This document shows positions 38,272 through 51,034 of a DNA stretch of 64,000 nucleotides, in pieces. Made by a program: the position numbers and the translations under genes. Numbering within the stretch: position 1 is the stretch's first letter; every line of letters starts with the position of its first letter. Origin of the DNA: Symmetrospora coprosmae (lineage: Eukaryota; Basidiomycota; Cystobasidiomycetes; Symmetrosporaceae). The stretch covers positions 232,669-296,668 of the forward strand of contig VUYT01000026.1 of NCBI GenBank assembly GCA_008802785.1. Direction: 5' to 3'. Below the pieces are notes generated by a model that was not told where the DNA came from, ran no database searches, and was given only the letters and a program-made list of their open reading frames with translations.

Positions 38272-40010
38272 ATGAGCGCGCAGACGCTCCACACCCGCAG
38301 TGCCAGCATCAGCTCCAGCTCTACTGGCTCTTTCAAGCCGCGACAGCCGACCGACGCGTTCCGAGGCCTGGTGGCGTTCTTCCCCAGAGGGACGCACTCG
38401 ACAGCAATTTACACCTGGAGTGCATCCTGCTGCCGTATACATGACGCCTCTGAGCAACATGTGCTGAGAATGACCATGCTCTCAACCTCCTGCGCAGCCT
38501 CGAACAAGGGGATCCTCGCCAGTCTCGGCGGGGTGGAGAGCGGCGATTTCCCCATCGACGTCATCTTTTCGCGAGCTGGCGACCCTTTCCTGAGCAGGTG
38601 CATCTGTCGTCTGTGTTGGAGATGCTTCCGATCCATGCTCAGCTACCGAGACTCTCTGTAACAGGCTGCCAGAGGGCCTCGACATCGAAACTCTCGACCT
38701 CGCCTGGATCAACGCGTCTCTCCAGGCAGGAAAGCTCTGCGAAGTCGCGCCATTTAGGCTCGACGATACATCCTGTGAGTGACATGTATGCTGAGATGGT
38801 CATCGGCGTCGCCTATATTGCCTATCCCCACCTGCCAGCATGCGCGACCACAGACAAGACTGCAACACGGCCGCCTAGCGATACTTCATCACCATCAACA
38901 ACAACAGAGACCGCTGCAGGCTTTCCTTCTCGCTTCGATACAGCTTCCGAATTGACTCAGCAGCAGAAAGGCACAAGCGCAGGCAAGACGACAGCCATCT
39001 CCCTTTCCCCTCTGATCCATGCTTCCGGAAGTGATGTCGCACCACCGCCTATTCAGCCGCAGGACATGCCTGCATCAGACGCACACGAGGCCAGCCACAA
39101 CAGCAGAAAGAATCACATGCAAGCAGATGCACAAACGCAGCCTCACCCCTCATCTCGGACCTGTGTCCGTACAAGCCAGCCTCCCATGCACAAGCAAAGC
39201 CATCAGCAACAACGAGAGCTACCCCTCGTTCACATCTCCAAGCTTCAGCGCCGACCAGCGTATTCGCGTCCAGTTGCAGACCTCACAGAGCTCTCCTCAG
39301 ATGATACCCGCTTCGGAAATGACCTCTCTGCGCCAGCTCACACCAGCCAAACCTCCGCCTCGACAGTTGGAGATGCAATTAACGCTGCAGAGCGCCTTGA
39401 ACAGCTATCACAGAAGATCAAGGTCATCCAGAACCTCCAGAGCAGTCACAGCACATACATGTCCAAGCTCGAGAGCCACGCAGACGGGCTCCGGCGTAGA
39501 CAAGCTGTCGAGAACGTCCATACCAATGCTCCGCGCTTCCCAACTGTCGGACCAGTGCCATGGACAAAGCGAGGCGGTGTCACGCAGGCAAGTCACGCAC
39601 CGGCGAAGGCCCTCAAGCTGGAGGAAGCAGAGACGGACGGCATGTTCAGGAGACTGCTCGACTACGGTAGCGACGATTCTGGACAAGAAGCTACAGCGCT
39701 CTCCTTCTCGACCAGGAAGGGCTTGCCGACTTTCAAGAGGGAGGAAGACGATTCGGTCCTGGCGCAAAGCGGGACGCCAGTCAGCCTGAGGTGCGATGCG
39801 AGCTCGATTCTTAAGCGCTGCAAGCACTGCTGACCTTGCTATCGATGTCCGCGCAGGAGGAAAGCCCACCGATCGATCGACAGGAGTGCTGCAGCAGAGG
39901 GTGGGCCGTTCAAGAGGCAGCGCACGTCACTGTCGGCATCATCGCCCGGGACGAGCAGAGCAGGCAGCGCAACTTACATCCGCAGCTCAAGCGGCAGCTC
40001 TGCATGCTGA
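38272..40010 (+). CDS. BRCT-domain protein of unknown role
   Basis: Five exons (38272-38419, 38498-38597, 38665-38774, 38839-39790, 39857-40010) give 487 residues. The N-terminus is Ser-rich, then a BRCT fold: FRGLVAFFPRG (first strand), ILASLGGVE (the GG turn), FPIDVIFS, LDIETLDLAWINASLQAGKL with the conserved Trp helix, and APFRLDD. The pattern resembles BRCT domains of X-family polymerases and end-joining proteins, but no polymerase, ligase or nuclease follows. The remaining 350 residues are Ser/Thr/Gln-rich with one helical stretch (AAERLEQLSQKIKVIQNLQS) and several SQ/TQ sites. The first intron (38420-38497) is 78 bases without a stop, so it could be retained, adding 26 residues. The gene is 190 bases from the ORC3 start, divergent. 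A DNA-damage or telomere role is only inferred. Confidence 0.75.
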
Positions 40011-40223
40011 AGGGACGGTGCGTAAACGAATCAGATACGGGAGAGGAAAGCAAGATTGCATTTCACAAGATGGGCAAACATACAACGACATGCGGACAAC
40101 AAGAGGGCAGAGCAATAGCATGCAGCAGGACAGGGTGGATATAGCAGGATCGTACAGTGCAGTTCGTCGTTGTCGTCGTATAGCGTCCGTTGGTCTAGCA
40201 CCGCAGTGATCGGATAGCAATCG

Positions 40224-42908
40224 TCACGCGGACTCCAGCGTGGCCTGCCGTGAGTGGCCGCCTCTCTGCCTGGCGAGTGCGCCGAGATTCGTATAGCTGG
40301 AGTTCCTGGAGCGGAGACCCGGTTTGCCGTCGTCCGAGCTGCCTGAGCCCGTGCCATTCGTCCCCGGCCGGGCGTCGCCATTCCCGCTTCCGGAATCAGC
40401 GGACCAGGCGCTCCCATTCGAGAGAGAGGGAGCAGTAGACGACACACCAACAGGGACGGAGAGATAGCCTTCCGAGTCGCTGTTCGACGTGGTGGCTGTG
40501 TGCGTTCGTCGCTTCGACTTGCGCCCGTCCCCGCCTCCAGGGCTGCGGCCTGGAGAGGCTGTCATGCGCAGGTGCCAGGGAGCGGTGCCCTGTCGCACAG
40601 GCGGGGTGAGTGGCGGAGGAGCGCCCTGCTCCATGCCCGTGCCAGCGAGGTCGAGGTGCAGGTTAGCCCGCGATGTGGGCGCAGAAGATGTAAAGACGGG
40701 ATGCTCGGCCTGTGGTGGAGAGCCGCGGAACAGGGCTGGGGAGGAGACGGCATGCTTGAGAGTACCGGGCCGGCTGGGTTGAGACTGCAGATGGCCCGTC
40801 ATTCGCCGAGTGGGACTGCTCGGGCGCGTAGTGGGGAGCGAGAAAGTCGAAGAGCCGTTACCGAGCGGCTTTTGCTGGTTCATGTACGTGACTGCCCTGG
40901 ATGCAAATATTCGAAAGGGCAGTATCGTTTTCGAGAGCGGGTTGAGGATCTTGCGCGGAGATGCGGCAGAATCGCCCGGCCCGCTGCCTGGGTAATCATC
41001 ATCGTGATCGCCCTCCTCCATTGAGACGAGGCCGTAGTCCTCGCGCGCAGGCTTCGATGGCCCGCTGAAGAAGGTTCGCCGGCGGGTCTTCCAGCAGAAA
41101 TAGTAGAGCGCCAAGGCCAGGAGCACGATGGCGATCAGGGCGAGCGGACTCGAGCTGGTCGATCCACGCCGAAGGGCATTGCTGATGCGATGCCGCCAGG
41201 ACTCTCTCGCATGGCCCGCCCGCCATTCAAAGGCCGGCGTCAGGGCATCTTCCAGCTCGTGTGCGTGCGCCTGGCTGCTCTTTGTCGACGAACGTGGTAT
41301 GCTATCGGTGACTTCGAGGACCATCCGACCGAGCGTCCAGCTGACAGCCACATTGTTGATCTCGTTGACGCTTTGGAAGCTGCTCTGTGCCTTTGCAAAG
41401 CCCTTCTGGCCTGCCTTGACGAGCGCGTCCTCCGTACCGTTGCCTCTACCGCCGTCCCCACCTGCGTCCAGTGTCATGCGCGGAATGCCGATGCCGTCAT
41501 GCAAGACGTTGACAATCCAAGCCGCTTTAAAGCACTGCATCTCCAGCCTGTGCAGATCTGGCGCCTTCTGTCCTATTTGCCAGCGAGACCCGCCCTCGGA
41601 GTGGTCTCTAACGATCTTGTCCCAATTCTGCGAGCAGTACGCCAGAGCGCTCTTCTCGAACGTCGGGAAATCGTACATGCCGCCGAGGCTCCAGATGTCC
41701 TGCGTCGAGTACCAATACTCGGAGATGCCGATGAAGTGGTTGACGGAGAAATCGATAGGCGGGACGTGCACGCCCATCAGGCATGGCTCGTCCGGACAGG
41801 GCAGGTCCTTGTTGAGGAGTGGAGCTGCCTTCTGCATGCACGCGGGGAAGTCGCCGGTGCCTTGCAGAGCGTACCCAGGATGCCGGCTCTCGGTGAGAAG
41901 CAGGTTCTTGGGCAGGCATGGGTCGGAGACAGCGACAGTGGGCTTTTCGGAGCCCACGCTCGCAGAGGCTTGCACGTCTGGTGGATGGTGGGCTAGGTAC
42001 TGGCTGACGGTAGCATCCACGTAGCGCTCTCGCGCCTGATTTGTGCCGTAGCCGAGCCACGTTGTGACAAAGACCGGGTGGTGCACATCGACGCCGTCGA
42101 GCAGGCGCAGATTGACGCTGAGCAGGTTATCCGCATGCTCCTTCCTCGCTTCTGTGCTCGGCTCAAAAGCAATCTGGGTGGATGCGCCGCCCATGTCGAG
42201 AAAGCCGTACGTCGATGAGTGCCTCCCTTTGCCCTTATCGGCCAGGCCGTGCGCGTCGAACCCGTCCATGAGGTAGTTTATGGCAACCCAGCCGTATACG
42301 CCCTCCTCCTCGCCGGAGATGATGCGCACCTGGTCCTCGCAGTCGGTCATCCGGAAAGGTGTCGAGTCGCGGATGTAACGGCAGGCGCCCTGCAGGACGG
42401 CCTCGCTCTGCGCAGCGGGGATCAAGCGCATACCAGCCGTGGCCAGCAGGTAGACTGGCGTGTTGGCCAGCTCGGATGCGGGGATGATGGAACGGGCATG
42501 GTCGAAAAGCGGCGCGAGATACGCGTCGACGCCTTCAGGGTTCGGGCCAAGCGAGGAGATGCCTGCGAGCGGGCGACCACGACGAAATTGCAGCAGGTCA
42601 GCTTCGGTCATCGTGCGCGCACGCCGTTGCTGCAGCCCTGTGTGTGCATGCATCCACCCACCCGGCTCTACCTTCAGCGTCCACCCTTCGCCGTGCTCGA
42701 CGCCTTTCTCAATCTTTGGCAGGACCCCGATAGCATCCCCTCTGGCTATCCTCCTCTCGCGTGCAATGGCGTGGTCAATCCAGCTGTACACCTGGATCCT
42801 GCTCCCCGATGATCCTGCATCAATCACGACGCCGTATCGCCGGTGCCGTGCCCACTCCTCGCTGACGGGAGCCCGCTTCGACAGCTGATGGTGGTTTTGG
42901 TCGGCCAT
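40224..42908 (-). CDS. YND1: Golgi apyrase (GDA1/CD39 nucleoside diphosphatase), Ynd1-like
   Basis: Hydrolyses nucleoside di- and triphosphates in the Golgi lumen, recycling GDP/UDP left by glycosyltransferases. Single exon, 894 residues. Apyrase conserved regions are all visible: VVIDAGSSGSRIQVYSW (ACR1), YLLATAGMRLI (ACR2), ISGEEEGVYGWVAINYL (ACR3, with the catalytic Glu) and GFLDMGGASTQIAFEP (ACR4). One transmembrane helix, ALIAIVLLALALYYFCW, lies near residue 605 after the catalytic domain, as in yeast Ynd1 and unlike Gda1, which is anchored N-terminally. About 270 residues of Ser/Pro/Gly-rich cytosolic tail follow, similar in layout to Ynd1, whose tail binds regulators. The frame is open upstream of 42908 but the extension begins with GTG, so the ATG at 42908 is chosen. 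Confidence 0.93.
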   Translation of the reverse strand: MADQNHHQLSKRAPVSEEWARHRRYGVVIDAGSSGSRIQVYSWIDHAIARERRIARGDAIGVLPKIEKGVEHGEGWTLKVEPGGWMHAHTGLQQRRARTMTEADLLQFRRGRPLAGISSLGPNPEGVDAYLAPLFDHARSIIPASELANTPVYLLATAGMRLIPAAQSEAVLQGACRYIRDSTPFRMTDCEDQVRIISGEEEGVYGWVAINYLMDGFDAHGLADKGKGRHSSTYGFLDMGGASTQIAFEPSTEARKEHADNLLSVNLRLLDGVDVHHPVFVTTWLGYGTNQARERYVDATVSQYLAHHPPDVQASASVGSEKPTVAVSDPCLPKNLLLTESRHPGYALQGTGDFPACMQKAAPLLNKDLPCPDEPCLMGVHVPPIDFSVNHFIGISEYWYSTQDIWSLGGMYDFPTFEKSALAYCSQNWDKIVRDHSEGGSRWQIGQKAPDLHRLEMQCFKAAWIVNVLHDGIGIPRMTLDAGGDGGRGNGTEDALVKAGQKGFAKAQSSFQSVNEINNVAVSWTLGRMVLEVTDSIPRSSTKSSQAHAHELEDALTPAFEWRAGHARESWRHRISNALRRGSTSSSPLALIAIVLLALALYYFCWKTRRRTFFSGPSKPAREDYGLVSMEEGDHDDDYPGSGPGDSAASPRKILNPLSKTILPFRIFASRAVTYMNQQKPLGNGSSTFSLPTTRPSSPTRRMTGHLQSQPSRPGTLKHAVSSPALFRGSPPQAEHPVFTSSAPTSRANLHLDLAGTGMEQGAPPPLTPPVRQGTAPWHLRMTASPGRSPGGGDGRKSKRRTHTATTSNSDSEGYLSVPVGVSSTAPSLSNGSAWSADSGSGNGDARPGTNGTGSGSSDDGKPGLRSRNSSYTNLGALARQRGGHSRQATLESA

Positions 42909-43841
42909 GGCCTGCAAGTCGACGCTGGAGTCCCCACTGACGCCGGCCAGTCTCACGCTGTTGCTTCAATGCTGCTGCGACACATCTGGTCCGGCCCTGG
43001 TGAGATGCGTGCTGATGCGCAGCCAGTCAGTCGAATGCCAGCCTGGATACCGAAAGCAGCGAGACGTCCGTCAGACGACCGGGGAGCGCGAGACATGGCG
43101 GCAACGCTGGAAGCAACCCCTCTTACTGACAGTATACATCGGTGTATGCTCAATACCTGCAAACTAGCGGGTTCAGCTGACTGAGCAGGACTATGCACGG
43201 CCGGCTTGCACCTCTCCCAAGCTGCATGCAAAGCGACCTTTCAGTCACCCATACGGCACCGCCCCTGCCTCGATAGCCCTGACAAGACCTCAGGAGCATG
43301 CAGAAGGAGCATGTCGAGAGTGGGCAAATCGCCGGCTTACCCGGACCCTCAGGATGAGCACATGGTAACTTGCAAGCGTATACCACACCCAGAGTACCGG
43401 TACGAGTAATCCTGATGATGCGGACGAATGTTGCGATGTGCAGCCAGATACGCGATATACCCCATGACAGCTCGCGACTGTACAACACGAAAGCTGCTGG
43501 CCAGCGAGCGCAATTCTACGGTACATCTCGCACGGACGGATTGCGCCCTGCGCTGACGCCCCTCTAGATCTACATCCGCGAGTCGAGGCGTAAACTGTGT
43601 GGGAACGAAGAGCAGCCGGAAAGCTGCCGTATCACCTTTGAACGCGGATACAGCAGCGGCCGAGCTTTATGGCAACAAAGGAACTGCTCGCTGCAGAATT
43701 CGCCTTTCGGACTTACGAGCCACTCGCTCTGCTTCTACAAGGGCGCCCCTCTGCGTTAGCTCTCGACATCAAGACCGGCAGTACTCAGGCACTCCGTACG
43801 CGCATTCGCTCGCCTTCACCAGCAAACGCCGGTCTCCGACC
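42909..43841. other. Intergenic region with YND1 promoter and duplicated leader of the finger gene
   Basis: The first half should be the YND1 promoter. From about 43479 to 43841 the sequence is homologous to the 45525-45944 region upstream of the second finger gene: both contain AGCTGCT(G/A)GCCAGCGA, GTGGGAA(C/T)GAAGAGC and CGCATTCGCTC in the same order. No gene is supported. Confidence 0.6.
43479..43545 (+). repeat. Direct repeat copy 1, left edge of the finger-gene tandem
   Basis: Copy 1 of a diverged repeat of roughly 70 bases, recognised by TGTACAAC, then AAGCTGCTGGCCAGCGA. Copies 2 and 3 lie at 45525 and 46960, in the same orientation, one before each gene and one after the second. Confidence 0.75.
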
Positions 43842-45473
43842 ATGGGCTCGTACAGCTCCACAGCACAAAGTAAGCTCTAAACGAAGGTCAAGACTGAGTC
43901 AGCCAGCGTGCTGATGGTCCGGAGATCCAGCCGCGAGCAAGTCTTCCACGGCACGCGGAGTAGCATCGCATGGATTCAGGCTGCGCAGGACGCAGGGACA
44001 TCCAATGACGAAACCTTTACGTCTTGAGCGACGGTCTCGGTTCAGGTGGGCTGTCGTTGATCCTTACAGATGTGTGGGATGCTGATTCTCGGTGCTTCTG
44101 TGCAAGACTCCCGCATCCTTTTGGGCGGCAGAAAGGGAGCTCGCGTGATTCTGCTGCCCTTCAGCCGACAGTTCCGAAACCTGCGGCAGTCTGGCCGAAG
44201 ATCTCGAATGCTCCAGAACCACCTCGTGATCCGTCTCAGCATCGTAAAGGCTCAGGAAGCACGACTATGGCCTCAACAGCCCAGGAACAATTCTGGTGAG
44301 CCTTTATAAGTCCGGTTGATTGGGCGAATGGCTAAAGCTTCATACAGCTGCCAATTGCGCGAGGGCTGCAATAGGACCTTCACGGCCGTCAGCTACGTCG
44401 AACTGGAGATGCAGGCCAAGCAGCACGTCAATGCGCGCCATCCTGAAACACATAATGCTAGTGTCAAGTACGATCGTTCAACAGGCATCTACTACGCTCG
44501 ACTGGACAGGCAGTCTCAGTCGCTGCCAGTCTACTCCGGACCGCCCCTTTTCCACGGAGACGTTACGCTGAGGTGCGTAACGTCCGGGCTCTACCGTGCA
44601 TTGAGCGTAGCAACCTGTTCTCGGGCGCTGATGCTTGTGCTGCTTTCTGGCTCACTGCATTACGCGAACAGTTGTACGCAGCGTGGTGGTTGCCGCGGAC
44701 TGACGTTGAGCGGTCTCCAGAAGTCAGTCGAATCTGCGATGCAAGCCCACTCTGAACACTTTCACTCCGTGCCCGTCCAAGATCAAGTCACAGGAATTCG
44801 TACAGAAAAGTGGGGCAGAACGACTGGACCTGCATTACCCACCGCCAGCGTACGAAGATCGGTCTCGCCGAAACCCGCAACTACCCATGCAAGTAACGCC
44901 ATGCAGCGCACTCAGATCCCGTCTTCCGAAACCTGGTTCGAACTCTCGGCAAGCGGCAAGGAAAGGGGCCGCCAAATGAAGCCTCCTGATCACATCAAAT
45001 TATTGACCTTCGTGTGAGTCCCTCTTTGCCCTTTGAAGGTAGCCAAGGTCCAGCGAGCGTTGACTGACCAGCGCGTGGGTCGCAGTTGTCCCTATGCGTA
45101 CTGTAAGCGGACGATCTCTGCTATCGGTCGAGACGATTGCGTGAAGAACGCTCGCGCCCACATGCGAGAGCATGGCAAGCGCTCCTACAACCTCGATGGC
45201 TGGGATGGCAAATCCGGTCTGCTCACTGCAACCTTAAACTTGAAGTACACATTCGACTGCGAGCAGTGCGCGGCGGATTTCGAGCTCCGATACAAAGACG
45301 TCAAGACGCACTGGGAGGATCAGAATGTCGAGCGCCTCTGTCGGAATGTCAGGCGTCACATGCAAGAACACGTCGAAAAGGGTCGGATTGCCGGCTTCGA
45401 GGACCCGAAACCGGACGAATCCATGCGCGTGGTGACTTCTAAGCGAGAGCTCCACCGATACATCGAATATTGA
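43842..45473 (+). CDS. Multi-finger Cys/His protein, first gene of a tandem pair (unrecognised family)
   Basis: Six exons (43842-43869, 43925-44045, 44107-44295, 44348-44572, 44672-45013, 45086-45473) give 430 residues in frame. The protein starts MGSYSSTAQ, which fits an N-myristoylation signal (Gly2, Ser6). About 110 polar residues follow, then four Cys/His units: CQLREGC with HVNARH; CTQRGGC with HSEH; CPYAYC with HMREH; and YTFDCEQC with LCRNVRRHMQEH. Three introns, all phase 2, end exactly at the first Cys codon region of units 1, 2 and 3. I do not recognise the family; the spacing resembles degenerate C2H2 fingers. The C-terminal unit is shared with the next gene. Nucleic-acid binding is possible but unproven. 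Confidence 0.7.
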
Positions 45474-45944
45474 CGATTTAGCGCCGAGCAGACGTACGGG
45501 TTCACTACTTGCAAGTTGAGATCTTGTACAACGCTAAGCTGCTAGCCAGCGAAGTTATACCAGAGATCCGAGCGAGACCTTGACAGACGACGGAGCCTTG
45601 TGAGATATTGTATATTGGCCAAGCGCAGTTGCTGGGCCCCCTCCGCGGGCCGGTATGTCCCATGGAACGGCAGAGCTGCGCTCTACTCTGACATCACCTA
45701 CTTACGCGATAGCTGGATCGCAGACCGCGTGGGAATGAAGAGCGTCCGGAGAGCTACCGGCACCACCTTTGACGCAGATCCTGCAGCGCCTGGGTTCAAT
45801 GGCTTCGAAAGGACTCCGCTCATCGTGCATTCTGCCTCTAAAGCTAACCGCCCTACCAGAGCCTCTCCTCTGCTCAACTCTCTACTGTCTGTCACAAGCC
45901 CTCAAGTAGCCCGCATACGCATTCGCTCTCCCAAAGCACCCGAT
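45474..45944. other. Spacer between the tandem finger genes, duplicated promoter
   Basis: 471 bases homologous over most of their length to the region upstream of the first finger gene, including the short boundary repeat and the block just before the start codon. This is the presumed promoter and leader of the second gene plus the 3' region of the first. Confidence 0.6.
45525..45597 (+). repeat. Direct repeat copy 2, between the finger genes
   Basis: Reads TGTACAACGCTAAGCTGCTA and then GCCAGCGA, closely matching copies at 43479 and 46960. Confidence 0.75.
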
Positions 45945-46886
45945 ATGGGATCGAACAATTCCTCAACGCAGAGTGAGCGCAGGCCGCCATGGGCGATGCT
46001 AGCAATCGATTGATTTAATGCTGACGTCCAACATAGAGCACGATCCTAATTCGGGGCGTACATCAGGTCAACACCGACCGACATTGCGCAGCACTTCTGG
46101 ACAGAAGTAAGCATTGCCACCACGCTTGACCCGGAGAGGACGCTGACATCTCCCACTGCTTTGTCAAGCACAAGGCCCCCTCGCCAAGTTGCTGGCGGCA
46201 GGCGCATTGTCCCCACCTCAAACCATCCCGAGGCTACCGCAGGCCTAGGGCGCATCCAGCATGCCAGCTCGTCGAATGCTCAGCAGTCGAGTACTACTAC
46301 CTCTGGACCGGCCAAGAGTGAGTTATCAGGAGCAACGCAAGCGGCGCGCGCCAGGTTGGGATTGACACGCCATGATCTCGATCCTGCAGTACCTACAGCA
46401 AGGCAGCAACCCGCCCCCATTCAAGCTTCGCCGCCGGAAGGTTTGCGCAAAGAGCCCATATTACTGCCATGGAGAGATTCAGTGCATAGCCAGCCCGTCC
46501 AAGCTGCAACCACGCCCATACTGCTGCCGTGGAGGTCGGATTATGCACCGTCCGCAGCCCAGCCTGCTGGCCGCAAAACTGGCCCGAGACGGCTACCTGC
46601 GGTGCGAACTCGGCGTGTGACTCTGCCACGAGGATCGTCAACGACGCCGAGAGAGCCGCTCTATACTTTCGATTGCGAGCAATGCGAAAGAGACGCGAAG
46701 TCCGGAAAACCGAGGAAAGACGTCAACCTGCGGGCTCGAGATACTGACCTTCTATGCGGCATTGTCAAAGCTCATATGAAGGAGCACTTCGACCAACACC
46801 AAATCACCGGGTACGAGGAACCTGTGCCCGACCATGGGAGCCGCAAGATCATATGCAAGCCTAGGCGTAAACCTTCGTCAGTCTAA
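45945..46886 (+). CDS. Short paralogue of the multi-finger protein, second gene of the tandem
   Basis: Three exons (45945-45972, 46037-46106, 46169-46886) give 271 residues. Exon 1 is 28 bases, the same length and phase as in the first gene, and encodes MGSNNSSTQ, again fitting N-myristoylation. Exon 2 also ends in phase 2 in both genes. The middle is Ala/Pro/Gln/Ser-rich and contains a duplicated segment, EPILLPWR and TPILLPWR, 21 residues apart. Only one Cys/His unit remains, at the C-terminus: LYTFDCEQC, then LCGIVKAHMKEH and ITGYEEPVPD, aligning with the last unit of the first gene (YTFDCEQC, LCRNVRRHMQEH, IAGFEDPKPD). Units 1-3 are missing, so this copy lost them or never gained them. 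Function unknown. Confidence 0.7.
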
Positions 46887-47795
46887 GCAGCACGTCACGG
46901 GCCAGAGGGGCACACGTGTACGGGACGGAGGCTGGCGGAATGTTACCAGGACGAGACTATGTACACCGATAGCTGCTTGCCAGCGAATATACCCGAGTGT
47001 GACGAACGAAGTCCTGACCGGGACAACCCGCTTGTGCACTTCTTGCGGGAGCTGCCCTACACTTCAATCTTCGCCGTCATGCGAGCGTACGCACCTGCGG
47101 ACTGGTAGACCGGAGGAGTCAGCACGCTGCCTCCCTCTGTCTACGCTACGTGCACCATGTCGAGGAGGATAAGGGGAAGAGTGCGCCCGGGGCGCATGTG
47201 CGCGTATCTCAGGATTTTCAGTGTTTGTGTGTGAGTCGGCATTGGCTCGCTATGATAGCGAGGCCTAAGCAAGACTAATCGATTTGTAGTGTATCATCGC
47301 TGAATGTGCTGGACGGTGGGTGACGTTGAAGGAGCGGAGAGGTGTCGGGGAGACTTGGAACCGGGCAGGAAGGGCTTCGAGGCAGGTGCGGGAACTCACT
47401 GTTTGGCTGACAGCGGATCAAGCTGCACGCTCGACGCTGTAGAATCGCCTTCTGCTTGCTTCTGTGCAGCATTCAGTCTTGACGTCTTTCGAAAATTTCC
47501 AGGCTGTTGAGCAGTGGTCGGAGAGGCCGCCGCGGCTGCGTGCATGTATCCATCTAGCCAGAGTGGATCGTCATATCAGGTCAGAGTGCTCTTGCTGTCG
47601 ATTTCCGTTGTGCCATCTTTGCGCTGTTCCTCGTTGCTGGCTCCGAGCAGAACCAACCCGCGTGAGAGCGAGGCAGGGCAGGGGCAAGCCGGGAGGGGGA
47701 GGGGCACAGCAGCAGGCGGCTCCTCCCTCTCGACCATACCGAGATCACGGCGACGACGACGGCAGCAGCAGCATCTCACTACCTTCCTCTTCAGT
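46887..47795. other. 909-base intergenic region with a third repeat copy
   Basis: Begins with the 3' region of the second finger gene and a third boundary repeat at 46960. After it no finger-gene reading frame can be followed, so a third unit is absent or decayed. The right part (about 47500-47795) should be the ATP20 promoter and leader. Confidence 0.55.
46960..47033 (+). repeat. Direct repeat copy 3, right edge of the finger-gene tandem
   Basis: Reads TGTACACCGATAGCTGCTTG and then CCAGCGAATATACC, matching copy 2 (TGTACAACGCTAAGCTGCTA, GCCAGCGAAGTTATACC). It bounds the array on the right. Confidence 0.75.
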
Positions 47796-48552
47796 ATGCT
47801 CTCGCTCTCCTCCACCTCAGTCCGGATGCTCCAGGCATCGAGCCGGCGCTCCCTCCTCGTCGCCTCTGCGCGCCTCGCCTCGACCTCGACGGGGCAGGCA
47901 GCGAGCGACAAGGCCAGCCAAGCAGCAGACAAGGCCAAGGAGACGGCAGAGGCAGCAAAGGATAAGGCGAGCGAGGGGGTCGACGCAGCAAAGGGATACG
48001 CCAACAAGGCCGTCCAGAGCGGGTCCAACGCCCTCGGGTCGATTGGGCAGAGAGCCAATGGACTGCTCGGAGGTGGGCGCAATGCGGGCGGGAAGGGACA
48101 CGGCTATGCTCGAAGTCTGTACTGACAATGGGCCTCACTCCTAACGGCCAACCCCGCAGCCTACTCGGAGCCCGTCGTCTACAACCTCCAGGTCCTGCGC
48201 GAGTTCGGCAAGCAGGTCTACATCTCGGAGAAGCTCGCACCCCCGACCAACCCGCAGGTCATCCGGGAAGCGTACGAGGAGTTCTACCACAAGGCGAGCG
48301 ATGCGAGCTGGTGGAGGAACCTCGTAGAGAGCGGAGAGTGGAAGCGACTGGGAATCTACGCTCTCGAGGCTTATGGGCTCTTCAAGATTGGAGAGATGAT
48401 TGGAAGGAGGTGAGGGCGAGCGGCGAGCGAGGCTCTGGCGTGCTGCATGGCACAACGCCCGTGCAGGCACTGACAACCCTTGTGTGTCCTTTCCTCGCCG
48501 CAGGCACGTTGTCGGCTACAAGGTCGAGGGCGCCGACAGTCACCACCACTAG
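47796..48552 (+). CDS. ATP20: Mitochondrial ATP synthase subunit g
   Basis: Membrane subunit of the F0 dimer interface needed for ATP synthase dimers and cristae shape. Three exons (47796-48072, 48160-48409, 48504-48552) give 191 residues. The N-terminus is basic and hydroxylated (MLSLSSTSVRMLQASSRRS), a likely mitochondrial presequence. An Ala/Lys-rich amphipathic stretch follows. The conserved part is SEPVVYNLQVLREFGKQVYI, EKLAPPTNPQVIREAYEEFY, then the transmembrane helix around WKRLGIYALEAYGLFKIGEM, which has a G-x3-E-like pattern as in Atp20. The protein ends RRHVVGYKVEGADSHHH. Convergent with ORC5. Confidence 0.92.
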
Positions 48553-48809
48553 AGAAGCCATGGCAGACATGGTCACCTGTACTGCTCGTGCTCGGGAGCG
48601 TGGGAAGAGAGATATAGGCCCGGCAAAACGGCACCTACCTGGCTGGCAGCCAGGTCCAGCCTGATTGAGTAGAGTCTTGCTTGTACATGCCAATGCAAAA
48701 GACGAGTTTGGGCGTACAACCCGTACTTCCCGCTCCCGCTCGAAAGGCTTCTGTAATCGACAACAACATACCGTCTACTGACACCTTCGCAATAGTCATC
48801 CAGCCCCGC

Positions 48810-51034
48810 TCACAGAGCCTCCCACAGCCGCTCGCTGACCTTGAAGTCCACGCTCTTGCCAATGCTCTCGATGAGCTCGAGCTCCAGCGACGTCGAGCAT
48901 TTCAGCTTGATGCCTTCTAGCTTGTCGAAGGCTGACACGGCTACTGCCACCGAGCCGGACGCTGCCGCTGCAGAAGCGGATGATGAGGTCTTGACAAGCA
49001 GCCGGAGGTTCGTAAGCGTCGCAATCTGCGATTGACCCGCATGTGCGCACATTAGCACGCAAGATTCGACCGGCACGCGTGTCGGGGCTGTAGCCTACCT
49101 CCTGGAACATGTCTGGCCCTCGTGCAAGACTCCGCAGCTCGACCGGCAGGATTGCCTCGGTGACTGCGCACAGCCTCTCGACCGCGAACGGTTTCGGCCC
49201 AAGCAAGCGCTGCGGCACTGCGTCCTTCTTGGCTCCTCCTCCAGGGCGCTGGGGTGTCTTGCGCGTCCCACCGCCTTTCTTCTTCTTGCGCGCGGAAAAG
49301 ACGTCCTCGTCGCCCGTGGCGACCATCAGCAGGTCCTTCTTGCTCGGGTTGGACGAGCACAGGAAAGCCGCGATGAGAATGTAGCGCGAGAGGAGCGGGA
49401 GCGAGAGCGTCAATGTCAGGCTGGGGTTTGTGCTGGTCGTACCTGTGCTCGTGCCTGGGTGGGCGCGCTTGGACGGCGTCACGGAGGGGAAGCAGAAGGA
49501 CGGCGACGCGAAACCGGGGAGGGGAGGCACCTTCGTGGGCGTCGTCGCCGTGCTCGTGCCAGCTGTCATCGTCATACGCATCTTGCTAGGCGACCGCGTG
49601 CCGTCGCTTATCGCGCCACGCTGCTCGGGCGCGGGAGGGGTGCCAGCTAGCGGCCGCAGCTCGGCGAGATTGTCGATCTCCCGCGCCAGATCGCCCTTGA
49701 GCAGCGCTACCATCCTCCCGCTGTCCTCTGAGGCGACATCGCCACGCGCAACCCGACCCACCCAGGTAGGCCACAGCCGCTCGGCGAGATAGACGTGCTC
49801 CGAGACTTCGTACGAGACGTAAGTCGAGAATGTCTGGACTATCAAGTCCAACAGGGACGCGAGAAGTTGTGATAGCGTTTGCTGGCCGAGCTCAGTTGGG
49901 CATCGATTTGGCGAGAGGAGCGCGGGAGAGAGATAGGCCGGGAGAAACGACAGCAGGTCTAGCGGAGAAGGCGAGGGCGACGCGCTCGTCAGCGTCTTGG
50001 CAATTCTATACACGCCGCCGATAAATCCCGGACGTCTGTGCGAGCTCACCTCGACGCGAAAGGGCGGGCATGGAGAGGGAAGCTGCTGGCTCTGTTGCTC
50101 CTCGTGTCGGTCTGAGGAGGAGCCACTCGCTTGACGACACGAGGATGGGCACAATCGGCTTGCCTGTCTGAGTATAGCCAGGAGCACGTATCAGTACGGA
50201 CAACCTCACGTTGCGTCGCATCGGGAGGAGCCTTACCAGCTCGCGCAGGCGCATGAAGCTCGCAAGTAGCGTGCCATCCCCCTGGCCGGCGGGCAAGCTC
50301 TCGAGCCCGGGCAGCCGCTCCGCATTGTGCAGCACAACGAATCGAGGCCGTTCGCGTGGCCGGCCTGTCCGCTGAGCAGATGACAAGGTGGTAGCCGTGT
50401 CTCCCAGGCTGAAGACGCTTCGCAGGCCGTCGAGAAAGCCAGAGAGGGACTCGTCCTTGCGCTCGCCCATGATGCCCTTGCCAGTCACTTGGGGCGCGTC
50501 GCGGGCTGCGTCATAGTCCCACTGGACAGTCGCGCTGCTGCGGCGTGTCGCGCGTGATCTGGCGGTTGAAGCGGACGATGGCGCGACTGAGCAGCCGCCC
50601 TGTCGCCCGTCCCAGTTGTGCGCGCCACCGAGCTCTTCGTCCCACGCCTGCGCAGTGTCCCACCCGGCGAGGCCGTTCAGAATGCGGCCGAAGAGGGCTT
50701 TCGAGGACGCGAGCTCTGCGCAGTCCACCGAGACTGAGCGGGGCAGGGCGCGCTGCAAGGTGTCGCGCGGGTCGGCATGCCCCTCCTCCTCGCCGTCTTC
50801 GCTATCGTCGTCGTCGTCGCTGCTGCCTTCAGTCCCGTTCAAGCAGGCCTGCAGAATGGACGGAAGCAGGTTCGCGTTGCTCGTCGCGTGAATGTAGATG
50901 GACCGCGGCGGGAAGGGAGACGAGAGGAGCGCCTGGAGCGAGAGGAGGAAAGGCGTGAGGGATGGAAGATGTGGATGCGATGGTGGTGCAGACGCGTCAG
51001 TGGAGAGCTGCAGCAGCGATGGAGGGATGTCCAT
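48810..51034 (-). CDS. ORC5: Origin recognition complex subunit 5, Walker motifs degenerate
   Basis: Subunit of the replication origin recognition complex. Several exons, start MDIPPSLLQL at 51034, stop at 48810. The N-terminal AAA+-like part shows PRSIYIHATSNANLLPSILQ, where ORC5 proteins normally have a P-loop (G-x4-GK-T/S). Here residues 49-56 are HATSNANL, so no Walker A Lys or Thr. The Walker B position reads RFVVLHNAERLPGLE, with His where Asp is expected. Downstream, GELAQTSGIY is frame noise, but GFIGGVYRIAKTLT, LTLTLSLPLLSRYILIAAFL and NPSKKDLLMV are ORC5 lid and winged-helix marks. The end reads IATLTNLRLLVKTSS to DFKVSERLWEAL. Identity good, ATP binding doubtful. Exon borders approximate. 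Confidence 0.85.

Follow-up and report, generated by a model that had tools for sequence, protein, structure and literature searches.

A tandem array of putative Cys2His2-type finger genes in Symmetrospora coprosmae includes the relic of a third unit

Two genes and the relic of a third unit

The window analyzed here, a stretch of 64,000 nucleotides from contig VUYT01000026.1 of the basidiomycete Symmetrospora coprosmae, contains two tandem genes on the plus strand, gene 1 (43842-45473) and gene 2 (45945-46886), preceded on the same strand by the relic of a third unit (43060-43507). The genome that was searched comprises 20.05 Mb in 77 contigs, and the window has a G+C content of 60%. An earlier reading of this DNA, made from the letters alone and referred to here as the sequence-only reading, had described the two genes as members of an unrecognized Cys/His-finger family bounded by direct repeats. 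The chosen model for gene 1, obtained by splice enumeration, has exons at 43842-43869, 43931-44045, 44107-44295, 44348-44572, 44672-45013, and 45086-45473 and would encode a protein of 428 amino acids with an isoelectric point (pI) of 9.8 and a charge of about +26. Gene 2 is modeled with exons at 45945-45972, 46037-46106, and 46169-46886; its predicted product of 271 amino acids (pI 10.8) carries only the C-terminal unit of the family.

Local DNA alignments were each compared with 300 dinucleotide shuffles. The upstream homology of about 370 bases proposed for the two genes was recovered: 43492-43875 aligned with 45627-45978 at 238 identical of 398 columns (z score, 25.5), and the 5' flank and leader of gene 1 (43492-43841, plus strand) are homologous to those of gene 2 (45627-45944, plus strand). 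Once the 88 out-of-phase columns had been excluded, identity in the phase-matched columns of the leaders was even across the three codon positions (35 of 50, 36 of 49, and 36 of 52). The conservation of the leaders therefore appears to be of the noncoding type, as expected for noncoding sequence, and a conserved upstream protein was rejected on the same grounds. The highest protein-level similarity between the leaders (z 12.6) was found in a frame pair with two stops on each side. The 3' parts of gene 1 and gene 2 also aligned with each other (z 12.2), and the segments between the start of intron 1 and the end of exon 3 did not align (z -0.2). Gene bodies would therefore have diverged faster than their flanks or been exchanged relative to them.

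The third unit is a frameshifted relic of a gene-1-like last exon and its 3' flank. It aligned with 45129-45552, where the last exon of gene 1 and the adjoining 3' flank lie, at 278 of 481 columns (z 14.5, against -0.4 and -0.8 for two control stretches), and it contains stops in all three frames (3, 5, and 4). Within it, 43283-43348 resembles the HM-x-EH region in a tblastn comparison (45% over 22 amino acids), with an E value of 0.002 in a 4.6-kb region, 0.012 when the whole gene 1 protein was the query, and 0.028 over the whole window. Against gene 2, the best alignment of the relic covered the 3' element only, and its score of 40 lay below that of the best shuffle (50). The relic also lies within 42909-43507, the 5' flank of a YND1-type gene, whose promoter may derive partly from a dead gene.

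The sequence-only reading had further reported a 70-base repeat before gene 1, between the genes, and after gene 2. Copies do occur in all three places, with a conserved core of about 40 to 48 bases and not 70. The copy after gene 1 (45518-45565, plus strand), 45 bases past the stop codon, matches 46953-46997 at 38 of 48 positions (z 6.3, exceeding all 300 shuffles). The copy after gene 2 (46947-46997, plus strand) lies about 60 bases past the stop codon, and the copy before gene 1 (43468-43507, plus strand) is the 3' end of the decayed third unit. When the latter two were compared, the score was 40 (z 3.3; null maximum, 41), which is not significant. Because the first copy ends the relic and the others follow stop codons, we read the "direct repeats" as three 3' flanks, one per unit. 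Direct repeats in this arrangement around the genes might also be the terminal repeats of a mobile element or viral insert. That explanation is very improbable, since the repeats at 45 and about 60 bases past the stops are 3' flanks and the first one stands behind the relic; in addition, no second copy of the genes or their flanks was reported in the 20 Mb, and no viral relative was confirmed. We rejected the mobile element for want of another reported copy of genes or flanks.

Homology runs in the same order through the 5' flank, the last exon, and the 3' flank, in agreement with the proposal that an entire transcription unit was duplicated in tandem, and the discovery of the relic unit strengthens this view. 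At the level of alignment, these data establish three units: all three are homologous in the last exon and the 3' flank, and two of them in the 5' flank as well. The same comparison shows one of the three to be a decayed relic.

Gene models and coding evidence

For gene 1, enumeration of introns from the proposed start yielded 54 chains that reach the stop; for gene 2 the number was 22, and 15 chains of each gene were listed. Intron 4 of gene 1 is absent from the chains listed and was accepted into the model because a Cys unit is thereby restored. In gene 2, a further intron is possible at 46318. Both models begin with the 28-base first exon that had been proposed, encoding MGSYSSTAQ in gene 1 and MGSNNSSTQ in gene 2 with 20 of 28 bases identical. 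The intron phases of the chosen models are 1, 2, 2, 2, and 2 in gene 1 and 1 and 2 in gene 2; the phase match described for the first two introns is thus present, both models opening with a plausible phase-1 intron and continuing with a plausible phase-2 one. Upstream ATG codons occur at matching places in the two leaders (43669 and 45799), in a frame other than that of the MGS start. The frames that open there differ in length (81 and 36 codons), and conservation within them is not codon-like.

The consensus for N-myristoylation is MG-x-x-x-S/T, and the MGS N terminus fits it in both models. The genes might on this basis encode membrane-tethered finger proteins, in which the MGSxxS exon would serve for N-myristoylation, a basic stretch would follow, and the fingers would make protein contacts at the membrane. 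The position of MGSYSS and MGSNNSS is indeed kept while the next exons are unalignable, and both predicted proteins are strongly basic. The conservation of exon 1 (20 of 28 bases, 71%), however, does not clearly exceed that of the leader (60%, with a patch of 76%), and DNA-level homology alone can therefore explain the MGS match. The motif is also short and common, and the upstream ATG codons leave the start codon uncertain. We give membrane tethering little probability.

The claimed exon chains fared unevenly: the last exon held up, and the chains beyond it lack support from open reading frame (ORF) length and from most codon scores. The longest open frame, of 278 codons, is within chance (simulated mean, 222; 95th percentile, 304; 300 simulations), and ORF length was accordingly rejected as proof of coding. 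On a codon-usage score that ranges from +0.118 to +0.317 in left-out reference genes, exon 6 of gene 1 scored +0.171 (strong) and exon 4 scored +0.089 (moderate). Exons 2, 3, and 5 of gene 1 had negative scores; for exon 2, the chosen frame scored -0.208 and another frame scored +0.173. The last exon of gene 2 scored -0.058 and its C-terminal part alone +0.024, and the body of gene 2 (46170-46640) scored below zero in all six frames. Judged in this way, codon usage hardly supports the body of gene 2 or either N terminus.

The Cys/His units and their relation to known fingers

A C-terminal unit common to both genes, as the sequence-only reading had claimed, was evident by blastp (24 of 66 residues identical, 36%; E 7e-13) and by shuffling (z 18.4, with 0 of 1,000 shuffles as good). 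It has the form C-x2-C-x29-H-x3-H and lies at 45246-45443 in gene 1, where it is finger 4, and at 46662-46859 in gene 2, both on the plus strand. All four Cys2His2 ligands are identical in the two genes. Across its 66 codons, 38, 40, and 25 bases are identical at positions 1, 2, and 3, respectively; because third codon positions are the least identical, the unit is, by this comparison, under protein-level constraint. The nonsynonymous distance (dN) is 0.57, and the synonymous distance (dS) was not computable by NG86, which returned -1, read as saturation.

These data bear directly on the rival that we give the most weight, namely, that the whole array is dying. The third unit is a relic, gene 2 would be a truncated pseudogene, gene 1 would be the last working copy, or none would work, and the conservation of the C-terminal exon would be residual. 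In keeping with this account are the relic itself, the negative codon scores of the gene 2 body in six frames, ORF lengths within chance, and the failure of intron 1 through exon 3 to align between the genes. The G+C content points in the same direction, being 0.569 over 43060-46997 versus 0.604 for the whole window. In 1-kb windows it is 0.556 to 0.581 over the locus and 0.60 to 0.65 in the adjoining windows; values nearly as low as that of the locus also occur further out (about 36 to 40 kb and 51 to 52.5 kb). On the other side, gene 2 retains four presumptive ligands and an open frame, and the two genes show an excess of third-position change at a distance where dS is not computable. At that distance, the excess argues that both genes were long under protein constraint after duplication. 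We regard a dying array as a serious possibility but doubt it.

In the chosen model, gene 1 contains three further fingers, all on the plus strand: finger 1 (44349-44441; C-x5-C-x18-H-x4-H), finger 2 (44673-44765; C-x5-C-x18-H-x2-H, with a third His two residues further), and finger 3 (45087-45173; C-x4-C-x18-H-x3-H). Each of them opens directly behind a phase-2 intron, its first Cys being encoded by the first complete codon of the exon. The pattern C-x(2,5)-C-x18-H-x(2,4)-H has 6 six-frame matches in the window, against 1.5 expected, and 3 of the 6 are in gene 1. When the gene 1 protein was shuffled 20,000 times, one match was present in 97 shuffles, two in 6, and three in none, a statistic that is descriptive, since the pattern was defined after the protein had been viewed.

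Similarity between units was assessed with 1,000 shuffles per pair. Unit 1 resembles unit 2 (p 0.003) and unit 3 (p 0.003), and unit 2 resembles unit 3 (p 0.039); on the strength of these pairwise similarities, units 1 to 3 are taken to be a repeat. The comparisons with the shared C-terminal unit were mixed. Unit 3 is similar to unit 4 (p 0.004) and to the gene 2 unit (p 0.006), unit 2 gave p 0.25 with unit 4 and p 0.005 with the gene 2 unit, and unit 1 is similar to neither (p 0.80 and p 0.92, respectively). A profile comparison of units 1 to 3 with the shared unit returned a probability of 25% and an E value of 0.00076 over 19 columns. A common origin of unit 4 with units 1 to 3 is probable but uncertain.

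The statement that no known finger class fits the family holds at this sensitivity, with no Pfam match above the cutoff and no significant match to a PDB sequence or fold. The hmmscan results were listed to an E value of 10, with filters that drop most matches above about 0.1. AlphaFold2 was run on unit 1 (44349-44525), with units 2 and 3 as the alignment, and gave five models with a mean predicted local distance difference test (pLDDT) score of 67.8 to 73.7; the best model (pLDDT 73.7) has a helix at residues 16 to 30 and a hairpin at residues 39 to 42 and 47 to 50. Foldseek found no match at an E value of 0.001 or better in PDB or BFVD, and the PDB sequence search found nothing convincing (best E values, 1.4, 0.047, and 0.3). 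The strings FDCEQC, CEQCAADF, and YTFDCE had no occurrence in the literature searched. Profile matches to TRASH and YHS remained under the cutoff (15.2 versus 27 and 14.7 versus 30.3 bits); the weak, subthreshold TRASH row covers the unit 4 region, with E values of 0.024 for the unit and 0.011 for the whole protein.

Classical C2H2 fingers have the spacing C-x2-4-C-x12-H-x3-5-H, with about 12 residues between the second Cys and the first His. The units of the present family share with this class (PF00096) the order of two Cys followed by two His, a His-bearing helix in the AlphaFold2 model, the occurrence of several units per protein, and a basic protein. They differ in that the four units of gene 1 and the unit of gene 2 have x18 or x29 in place of about x12. 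No PF00096 row was obtained by hmmscan at E values up to 10, and other C2H2-type rows were subthreshold (zf-C2H2_4, E 0.13, 13.4 versus 27 bits; zf_Hakai, E 1.7, 8.8 versus 26 bits). Tandem C2H2 gene clusters evolve by duplication and loss, and they resemble the present array in its tandem copies, its relic, and its differing number of fingers; here, in contrast, there is a single locus and an unrecognized finger class. Tandem expansion is mentioned in the abstract of PMC3701560, and at least one survey of basidiomycete zinc-finger genes starts from the PF00096 profile (PMC12295980).

The best subthreshold Pfam row was DUF1059 (PF06348), which matched unit 1 with an E value of 0.011. Units 1 to 3 could accordingly be a diverged fungal form of this small prokaryotic Cys2His2 domain of unknown function. 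All 5 of the relatives fetched, which are bacterial and archaeal, have C-x6-C-x18-H-x4-H, so that the x18 spacing is the same as in units 1 to 3 and the other spacings are 0 to 2 residues off; unit 1, with C-x5-C-x18-H-x4-H, is one residue off. In hhalign, the second Cys and the first His stand in register without gaps. Because of this spacing and register, descent from a DUF1059-like domain stays among the rivals that we entertain, and yet we consider it improbable: unit 1 reached 16.4 bits against a cutoff of 21.1, hmmscan gave no DUF1059 match for units 2 and 3, this genome has no match over the cutoff, and the profile-profile test with the 5 prokaryotic members was negative (probability, 1%; E 0.056), both alignments being shallow. 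As an observation on the prokaryotic family itself, which Pfam lists as of unknown function, C-x6-C-x18-H-x4-H is likely a metal site.

Setting, distribution, and reading of the locus

The locus is flanked by a YND1-type gene on the minus strand and an ATP synthase subunit g gene, followed by ORC5. Its described position between housekeeping genes is borne out by profile matches of the YND1-type nucleoside phosphatase gene (GDA1/CD39-type; coding sequence at about 40224-42908, minus strand; GDA1_CD39, E 2.8e-94), the subunit g gene ATP20 (ATP-synt_G, E 3.1e-11), and ORC5 (ORC5_C, E 3e-19). The locus may, as the sequence-only reading had proposed, be lineage-specific and accessory. Beside the YND1-type gene, at 38454-39833 on the plus strand, lies an open frame of 459 codons that may be an orphan gene or chance; it had no Pfam match above the cutoff (best, Vac_Fusion, E 0.0017, below the cutoff). 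Rfam had no match at gathering scores in 40000-50000, and a scan for bacterial-type promoters and terminators, which is not designed for such genomes, gave no excess over shuffles.

The distribution of the family was searched in its own genome and in prokaryotic and viral collections. In the 20.05-Mb genome, protein searches found only genes 1 and 2 and also missed the relic. DNA searches with gene 1 and its flanks gave only self-matches and also missed the sister unit, which aligns at about 60% over the 5' flank. Since the relic and the sister unit were missed, diverged or decayed copies elsewhere would escape too. The FDCEQC codon pattern had 46 matches in this genome at two or fewer mismatches, versus 29 for a reversed control pattern, and among the 8 of the 46 that were read, only the two known genes run on into the HM-x-EH unit. 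No relative was confirmed among pattern stretches from IMG/VR and prokaryotic genomes (45 and 24, respectively).

We read the locus, with about half of our confidence, as a tandem birth-and-death array of a basic, nucleic-acid-binding orphan family of Cys2His2-type fingers. One transcription unit would have been copied at least twice, giving three units, and the three N-terminal fingers would either have dropped out of gene 2, as modeled, or never have been part of it. Gene 1 would specify the intact product, a basic protein with a poorly conserved and probably disordered N terminus and, in the chosen model, four Cys/His units, three of the form C-x4/5-C-x18-H-x2/3/4-H and one C-x2-C-x29-H-x3-H. 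The finger units probably arose by repetition of an exon bounded by phase-2 introns. Judging from the spacing of the ligands, one zinc ion is most likely coordinated per unit, by two Cys and two His residues; the middling-confidence AlphaFold2 model suggests a fold with the Cys residues in a loop and the His residues on a helix, accompanied by a hairpin. Basic charge and the finger array make nucleic acid in the nucleus the most likely binding partner of the gene 1 protein. The family would then be a fast-evolving orphan regulator kept by birth and death of tandem copies.

Several points weigh against this interpretation. The splice chain of gene 1 was picked with the fingers in view, and the finger pattern was likewise defined after the fact. 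The 99-base intron 4 of gene 1 reads through in frame without a stop and might itself be exonic. Codon usage backs mainly exon 6 of gene 1. No family rose above the cutoff when the two proteins and the units were compared with Pfam by hmmscan, and the AlphaFold2 model of the last exon of gene 1 (units 3 and 4) had a pLDDT of 58.3, too low for use. Unit 4 appears to be linked weakly to units 1 to 3, and zinc binding, DNA or RNA binding, expression, and splicing are predictions.

A bolder form of the interpretation, which we consider unlikely, is that the x18 unit is a lineage-restricted class of zinc finger with a beta-hairpin after the x18 spacing, multiplied within one gene by duplication of an exon bounded by phase-2 introns and turned over by tandem birth and death at one locus, and hence a DNA- or RNA-binding fold that is either young or evolving very fast. 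What the locus holds seems to be an orphan gene family, a modest finding and no new kind of system. It nevertheless presents, next to each other, the duplication, the probable truncation, and the decay of a single unit. A survey based on PF00096, such as the one cited above (PMC12295980), would probably miss this family, and orphan regulators of this kind may therefore be undercounted.

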